Positions 42,659 through 59,216 of a DNA stretch of 64,000 nucleotides are shown here, piece after piece. Numbering within the stretch: the stretch's first letter is position 1; every line of letters starts with the position of its first letter. Both the position numbers and the translations under genes were made by a program. The DNA comes from Paucimonas sp. (lineage in GTDB: Bacteria > Pseudomonadota > Gammaproteobacteria > Pseudomonadales > Pseudomonadaceae): NCBI GenBank assembly GCA_031253995.1, contig JAIRVG010000078.1, positions 1 to 64,000 of the forward strand. Direction: 5' to 3'. The notes beneath the pieces are model-generated. The model had not been told where the DNA came from. It ran no database searches and saw only the letters and a list, made by a program, of their open reading frames with translations.

Positions 42659-43198
42659 ATGACAGCCATGGACGCCTGGTGGCATGAAGTGTGGGTGACA
42701 CTGGTGGCGGAATTCGCCGATATCACCGATGCCAAGCAACTGACCCAGGTTTCGGTGCGCCTGCTGATGGCCGCGCTGCTGGGCGCGGTGCTCGGGTTCG
42801 AGCGGGAGATGAAGGGCAAGGCCGCCGGGGTGCGCACCCATATGCTGGTGGCCATGGGCGCGGCGCTGTTCGTGCTCGTGCCACGCATGGCCGGGGTCGA
42901 CGATGCCGCGTTGAGCCGGGTGGTGCAGGGGATCGTCGCCGGTATCGGCTTTCTTGGCGCGGGGACCATTCTCAAGGGGCACGATATGGATGCCAGTCAC
43001 GTCAAGGGGCTGACCACCGCTGCCGGCCTGTGGATGACCGCCGCCATCGGCGTGGCCGCCGGCATGGGGCGCGAGGCCACGGCGGTGCTGAGCACGTTGC
43101 TGGCGCTGGCGGTGTTTGCTGTGATGCCGTGGGTGGTGGACCTGTTCGAGGACAAGGACCACAGGCAGGACAAGGGGGACGAAAGTGGTGGGGCCTGA
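42659..43198 (+). CDS. MgtC/SapB family protein
   Basis: LLMAALLGAVLGFEREMKGKAAGVRTHMLVAMGAALFVLV...GIGFLGAGTILK...GLTTAAGLWMTAAIGVAAGMG. Confidence 0.93.
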   Translation: MTAMDAWWHEVWVTLVAEFADITDAKQLTQVSVRLLMAALLGAVLGFEREMKGKAAGVRTHMLVAMGAALFVLVPRMAGVDDAALSRVVQGIVAGIGFLGAGTILKGHDMDASHVKGLTTAAGLWMTAAIGVAAGMGREATAVLSTLLALAVFAVMPWVVDLFEDKDHRQDKGDESGGA

Positions 43199-43203
43199 AT
43201 GCA

Positions 43204-43566
43204 CTGAGGGGAGCCGAAGCTCCCCTCAAAGATTGTTGCGTGCTCTTTTTTTGTTATTGGAGGGCGGTCTATTGTTGTTTTTGGCAACCGTTGCCTCTTC
43301 TTGCTGTTTTGTGCGATCCCCATCCGGGATCAAGAGCAAACGTATTTTTTTGAGCGCTGATCGACCTTCATCAATCTGATCCAACCTGACGGGCGCTACC
43401 TTGAGGTAGTTTTATTGTTCTCTGCCTGGTTGCGGGGCACGCCCCCGAAAAGCCATCCACTTCAAAAAAATCAGTTAGCTTCGTCTCTGCCGTTTTGTTC
43501 TTGTTATGTCAGATCCGGTACGTCTTGTTTTTATTGGGTTTGCAGCATTTTTTATTCTTGTTGTGC
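43204..43566 (-). ncRNA. crcY: CrcY-type small RNA (Hfq/Crc-sequestering)
   Basis: Minus-strand RNA would begin GCACAACAAGAATAAAAAATGC and contain several A-rich AAnAAnAA-like motifs (e.g. AACAAGAACAAAAC, AAAAACAACAATAGA, CCAATAACAAAAAAAG), ending in GAGGGGAGC-UUCG-GCUCCCCUC; located between mgtC-like gene and mvaB. Confidence 0.85.
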
Positions 43567-43576
43567 CAGAGATATA

Positions 43577-43592
43577 GCAGGTGCCGTGCCAA
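43577..43592 (-). promoter_or_regulatory. Sigma54 -24/-12 promoter of crcY
   Basis: Minus strand TTGGCACGGCACCTGCT: GG-N10-GC; predicted +1 falls near 43566. Confidence 0.85.
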
Positions 43593-43672
43593 CTTTTCAA
43601 AACCCAATGAAACCGGGGGTTTGGCAGGGTTCGCGAAAAATCCGGGCCGGGAAAATCCGCTGATTTGTTTCC

Positions 43673-43743
43673 GTGTTACCCGGATTTTCCCTGGGAAGTG
43701 TGAAGGCGGTAACACTTTGTGTCCGTGTGTGGGGTGTTACCGC
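43673..43743. promoter_or_regulatory. Candidate CbrB upstream activating sequences
   Basis: Perfect inverted repeat GCGGTAACAC (43706-43715) / GTGTTACCGC (43734-43743) plus a third GTGTTACC half-site at 43673-43680. Confidence 0.7.
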
Positions 43744-43749
43744 GAGGTG

Positions 43750-44649
43750 TCAGCAGGCGTTACGGGCGCGCGCCACGCGGGAGCCGCTGGCACGGCCGAG
43801 CACCGAGCTGATGCGCTGGCCGGCGGCGATCAGCTTGTCCAGGTCGATGCCGGTGTCGATGCCCAGGCCCTGGAGCATGTACAGCACGTCCTCGCTGGCG
43901 ACGTTGCCACTGGCGCCCTTGGCATAGGGGCAGCCGCCCAGGCCTGCGACCGAGCTGTCGAACACGTTGATGCCTTCCAGCAGGCTGGCGTAGACGTTGG
44001 CCAGGGCCTGGCCGTAGGTGTCGTGGAAATGCCCGGCCAGTTGCGGGCGCGGCACCTGGGCGCCGACCACGTTGAACAGGTGGCGGGTGGCGCCGGGGGT
44101 GCCGGTGCCGATGGTGTCGCCCAGGGACACCTCATAGCAGCCCATTTCATACAGCTCGCGGGCTACCGCAGCCACCTGCGCCGCGTCCACATTGCCCTCG
44201 TAGGGGCAGCCGAGCACACAGGACACGTAGCCGCGCACCCGCACCCCGTGCTGGCGCGCGGTATCCATGATCGGCACGAAGCGCTGCAGGCTCTCGGCGA
44301 TGGAGCAGTTGATGTTGCGCTGGGAGAAGGCCTCGGAGGCGGCGGCGAACACCGCGACTTCCTTGACCCCGGCGCCCAGGGCGTCCTCGAAACCGCGCAT
44401 GTTGGGAGCCAGGGCGGCGTAGGTCACCCCGGCCTTTTGCCGGATGCCGGCGAAGACGTCGGCGGAACCGGCCATCTGCGGCACCCACTTCGGCGAGACG
44501 AAACTGCCGACCTCGACGTAGGACAGTCCGGCGTCGGTGAGGTCATCGACCAGGCGCACCTTGTCGGCGACGCTGATGGGTTGGGCTTCGTTCTGCAGAC
44601 CGTCGCGGGGGCCGACTTCGACCAGACGAACTTTGGCGGGCAATGGCAT
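43750..44649 (-). CDS. mvaB: Hydroxymethylglutaryl-CoA lyase
   Basis: VRLVEVGPRDGLQNEAQPI; VSLGDTIGTGTPGATRHLF; AGHFHDTYGQALANVYASL; GLGGCPYAKGASGNVASEDV. Confidence 0.95.
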   Translation of the reverse strand: MPLPAKVRLVEVGPRDGLQNEAQPISVADKVRLVDDLTDAGLSYVEVGSFVSPKWVPQMAGSADVFAGIRQKAGVTYAALAPNMRGFEDALGAGVKEVAVFAAASEAFSQRNINCSIAESLQRFVPIMDTARQHGVRVRGYVSCVLGCPYEGNVDAAQVAAVARELYEMGCYEVSLGDTIGTGTPGATRHLFNVVGAQVPRPQLAGHFHDTYGQALANVYASLLEGINVFDSSVAGLGGCPYAKGASGNVASEDVLYMLQGLGIDTGIDLDKLIAAGQRISSVLGRASGSRVARARNAC

Positions 44650-59064: not shown

Positions 59065-59216
59065 GAGCCCCTCCCTATGTCGAAGAAGTGACTCCGACAT
59101 GGCGGCTGGATAACCGTCAGAGGGGCCCGCAGTCACAGGCTTGAGCCTAGTCGGCGCATGACCCGGGGGAGTGGGGAGAGAGTTACAAAATCCTACAGAG
59201 GCTCAGGAAATGTCCT

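Follow-up and report, generated by a model that had tools for sequence, protein, structure and literature searches.

A predicted crcY small RNA behind mvaB in a Paucimonas genome and the half-sites upstream of its promoter

Results

The stretch of DNA analysed here in its full length of 64,000 nucleotides (hereafter the window) carries, on the minus strand and between mvaB and a gene of the MgtC/SapB family, a small RNA locus together with its promoter, whose features are collected in Table 1. The initial annotation had read from the letters a GG-N10-GC element at 43577-43592 and a transcription start at about 43566, and both readings stand: TTGGCACGGCACCTGCT runs from 43592 to 43576 on the minus strand, its GG occupying 43590-43589 and its GC 43578-43577, and is conserved in relatives, the -24/-12 element having an identical placement in the related loci with a located promoter, while the predicted transcript begins with GCACAACAAG at 43566 (-). 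A scan of the region found no sigma-70 promoter.

Table 1. Features of the crcY locus in the window, with promoter positions relative to the predicted start of the RNA; promoter counts refer to the sample of 98 loci described in the text
Feature	Position	Strand	Remarks
mvaB, hydroxymethylglutaryl-CoA lyase	43750..44649	-	NF004283, 492 bits; upstream neighbour of crcY
R0, extra upstream reverse half-site GTAACA (-174)	43735..43740	-	28/73 crcY and 23/25 crcZ promoters
F1, forward half-site TGTTAC (-148)	43709..43714	-	73/73 crcY promoters; F1 of PMC6296734
R', reverse half-site GTAACA (-113)	43674..43679	-	73/73 crcY promoters; corresponds to the P. putida crcY R', whose centre is at -112 (PMC6296734)
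R2, probable degenerate CbrB site GAAACA	43666..43671	-	within conserved block GGAAACAAAT; putative assignment by the spacing rule of PMC8871633
IHF consensus position (-57)	43611..43623	-	decayed to CAAACCCCCGGTT, 3 mismatches
sigma54 (RpoN) -24/-12 promoter	43576..43592	-	TTGGCACGGCACCTGCT; GG-N10-GC; conserved position
crcY sRNA	43203..43566	-	about 362-364 nt; RF01675 match and crcY clade; promoter-based prediction of the +1, precise ends inferred
A-rich Hfq/Crc motif cluster 1	43549..43562	-	
A-rich Hfq/Crc motif cluster 2	43525..43535	-	
A-rich Hfq/Crc motif cluster 3	43495..43505	-	
A-rich Hfq/Crc motif cluster 4	43412..43419	-	
A-rich Hfq/Crc motif cluster 5	43272..43282	-	
A-rich Hfq/Crc motif cluster 6	43248..43258	-	
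3' hairpin, 10-bp stem, UUCG loop	43205..43228	-	TGAGGGGAGC-TTCG-GCTCCCCTCA; 6 nt past the mgtC stop
MgtC/SapB-family gene	42659..43198	+	NF007431, 100 bits, below the equivalog cut-off; convergent with crcY

The Rfam search that had been proposed for this locus returned a match of 330.9 bits to the covariance model RF01675 (CrcZ), against a gathering score of 95 (E=4e-92), which rules out a lack of similarity to known Crc RNAs; the match covers 43564-43173 (-) and model positions 1-398, that is, the whole model. The genome holds only two members of this family, the second lying on another contig (C6, 340.5 bits) between cbrA-cbrB and pcnB, which is the position of crcZ. At least one RF01675 match occurs in all of 120 sampled Pseudomonas genomes, and two in most of them. 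Elsewhere in the window, at 59085-59138 (-), the Rfam terC RNA (RF03067) scores 47.5 bits, its gathering score being 39.9.

The tree and the motif counts use 98 loci anchored on their promoters (73 crcY and 25 crcZ), a sample partly drawn by similarity to the window whose counts are not genus-wide frequencies. In the maximum-likelihood tree crcY and crcZ separate at 100/100, and the window RNA falls within crcY, where it adjoins P. bharatica CSV86 and P. japonica; its nearest relatives are all crcY, the closest being 98% identical. A looser crcY cluster, presumed to include P. putida, is about 76-78% identical to the window over 721 bp, KT2440 itself not being among the aligned sequences. The RNA lies directly downstream of mvaB, a position that marks crcY rather than crcZ, and we place it as crcY because mvaB adjoins it as in the PP3539-mvaB-crcY transcript of P. 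putida, the reported source of the processed form CrcY* (PMC6292655). Of the mvaB/mgtC neighbourhood that the initial annotation ascribed to P. putida, the mvaB side thus holds, but the mgtC neighbour is not general: among about 60 mgtC relatives outside the window's group, none adjoins crcY or mvaB.

Two open frames, 68 and 82 codons long, lie across crcY, and an ORF caller would propose a small protein gene here. The coding explanation was rejected, and we give it practically no chance, as these frames are open in just 25 and 27 of the 73 relatives while the RNA is conserved throughout; the warning in the initial annotation about false ORFs was therefore sound. The CrcY-type sRNA proposed there agrees with the evidence from Rfam, synteny, phylogeny and promoter anatomy alike, and from these sequence comparisons we put the probability that the window RNA is crcY at about 97%.

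The body of the RNA bears the multiple A-rich motifs that had been noticed, in exactly six AANAANAA clusters within 364 nt, a number that none of 2000 dinucleotide shuffles reaches (mean 1.2); windows away from the crcY locus have at most one such cluster each. All six are predicted to be unpaired, with a mean probability of 0.95-0.99 vs 0.51 overall, and six clusters recur in 96 of the 98 Crc RNAs (71/73 crcY, 25/25 crcZ). From the predicted start to the end of the hairpin the RNA measures about 362 nt, in line with the 363 nt or so estimated beforehand. The UUCG-capped hairpin, taken in the initial annotation for the end of the RNA, does lie at 43228-43205 and is kept across crcY relatives (a few have another loop) and in the crcZ of the genome, but no U-tract follows it in the window crcY, in the crcY relatives or in this crcZ. 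Since the U-tract is missing in the copies examined, the hairpin is not a textbook terminator; a scan of the region calls no terminator on the minus strand, reading the hairpin as an intrinsic terminator finds no support, and the 3' end given here is putative; it may form by termination or by processing, in this copy as in the family.

Upstream of the promoter, the published CbrB sites are the non-palindromic F1, R1 and R2, plus R' at crcY, and the published rule reads TGTTAC-N12-14-GTAACA-N15-19-GTAACA (PMC8871633). F1 and R' sit at fixed distances from the sigma54 promoter in all 73 crcY loci, the window included, as is proper to crcY. The probable degenerate R2 begins 43 bp past F1, within the published spacing of 39-45, and R1 is not recognisable, the window promoter having no good match at the spacing TGTTAC-N12-14-GTAACA. 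It is worth noting that R' is as invariant as F1 across crcY promoters despite being dispensable in P. putida, where its substitution was without effect in reporter tests (PMC6296734).

The same stretch contains an exact inverted repeat, whose arms GCGGTAACAC (43743-43734) and GTGTTACCGC (43715-43706) are separated by N18 and hold R0 and F1. The initial annotation regarded this repeat and a third half-site as CbrB sites; the arms and the third half-site, GTAACA at 43679-43674, are exact, but the repeat does not correspond to a published CbrB site. Its left arm at -174 cannot be called an expected crcY site either, as it is found in only 28 of the 73 crcY promoters, the invariant sites being F1 and R'. 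Among crcY loci the R0 arm is confined to some lineages, and at crcZ it is common (23/25). We also observed that crcZ promoters widely carry R0, at a distance of 25-26 bp on the upstream side of F1.

The pattern GGTAACA-N(15-23)-TGTTACC has two matches in the entire 6.3-Mb genome, one at crcY and one upstream of crcZ, and the reversed control pattern has none. In a set of 400 Pseudomonas genomes, the pattern is matched in 221, the control in about 29, and about 16 genomes carry two matches to the pattern; in the 17 listed matches that were paired by hand, the dyad lies 176-178 bp upstream of the start of the crcZ RNA.

Discussion

Apart from minor differences in the switch region, the window crcY is intact and unremarkable, and its biology is known; CrcY has not previously been pointed out in the source species, and the genome gains a clean crcY annotation. 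The differences concern the R0 arm and the IHF position, and each of them invites a reading of its own.

In the accessible parts of the text of the CbrB papers, only F1, R1, R2, R' and a distant F' are mentioned, and R0 is absent. It is tempting to hypothesize, at somewhat less than even odds, that the published CbrB target at Crc promoters is incomplete, and that R0, a fourth half-site widespread at crcZ across Pseudomonas and gained or kept at the crcY of this clade, pairs palindromically with F1 to form a pair that CbrB binds, contrary to the non-palindromic description. The repeat might instead be the terminator of mvaB, as it begins 7 bases past the mvaB stop and could form a 10-bp stem; the loop of 18 bases, the missing U-tract and the presence of the same dyad at an equal promoter distance before crcZ, which lies behind cbrB and not mvaB, make this very unlikely. 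The R0-F1 dyad singles out both Crc promoters genome-wide and could refine the prediction of CbrB targets.

Activation of crcZ and crcY is reported to be assisted by IHF (PMC6296734). An IHF site near -57 is a conserved accessory feature that has not been published as defining crcY: the consensus YAANNNNTTGATW is present with 0-1 mismatch in 72 of the 73 crcY promoters, and the window, with three mismatches, is the sole outlier and lacks this feature. This decay therefore predicts a weaker or IHF-independent output of crcY in the strain, and the output could be lower than with an intact site. One may go further and suppose that crcY is present but weakly used, crcZ doing most of the work, a reading with which the singular position of the window and the description of some Crc RNAs as genetically redundant (PMC8871633) would agree; yet the RNA body, the six motifs, the promoter, F1 and R' are all intact, and a good IHF match at that position is missing from many crcZ promoters as well, so we consider it unlikely.

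In the CrcY/CrcZ family, CbrB activates transcription under limitation of the preferred carbon, and the RNA ties up Hfq/Crc (PMC6292655, PMC8871633). The partner genes are all found in the genome, as cbrA-cbrB-crcZ-pcnB, a gene for Hfq, and crc beside pyrE-like genes. By analogy with the other species in which binding, induction and titration were described, CbrA/CbrB would act at the half-sites upstream of crcY when preferred carbon is scarce and would drive transcription by RpoN polymerase at the -24/-12 promoter; CrcY, about 360 nt long, would display six single-stranded A-rich sites binding Hfq (with Crc), and the titration of Hfq/Crc would relieve the translational repression of catabolic mRNAs. 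Some basal CrcY may arise by processing of mvaB-crcY read-through, as reported in P. putida. Two crc genes were seen (C96:99820-100578 and C7:223-981), each with a pyrE-like neighbour and 90% identical over 1532 bp; because assembly completeness is 93% and contamination 2.9%, the second may represent a second strain and not a duplication.

Compared with CrcY of P. putida KT2440, the window crcY has in common the locus behind mvaB, the RpoN promoter, the half-sites F1 and R', and membership of an sRNA family whose A-rich motifs bind Hfq/Crc; it differs by the extra half-site R0 at -174 and by the loss of the IHF consensus. With CrcZ (RF01675) of P. aeruginosa and others it shares the RNA family and the mechanism, and with crcZ promoters the R0-F1 dyad, whereas crcZ sits between cbrB and pcnB, unlike the window crcY behind mvaB, and has reverse sites at -129/-107 in place of the R' of crcY at -113. 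The CrcX of P. syringae belongs to the same sRNA family (PMC8871633), and six A-rich Hfq motifs are likewise described for CrcZ/Y of A. vinelandii (PMC6292655).
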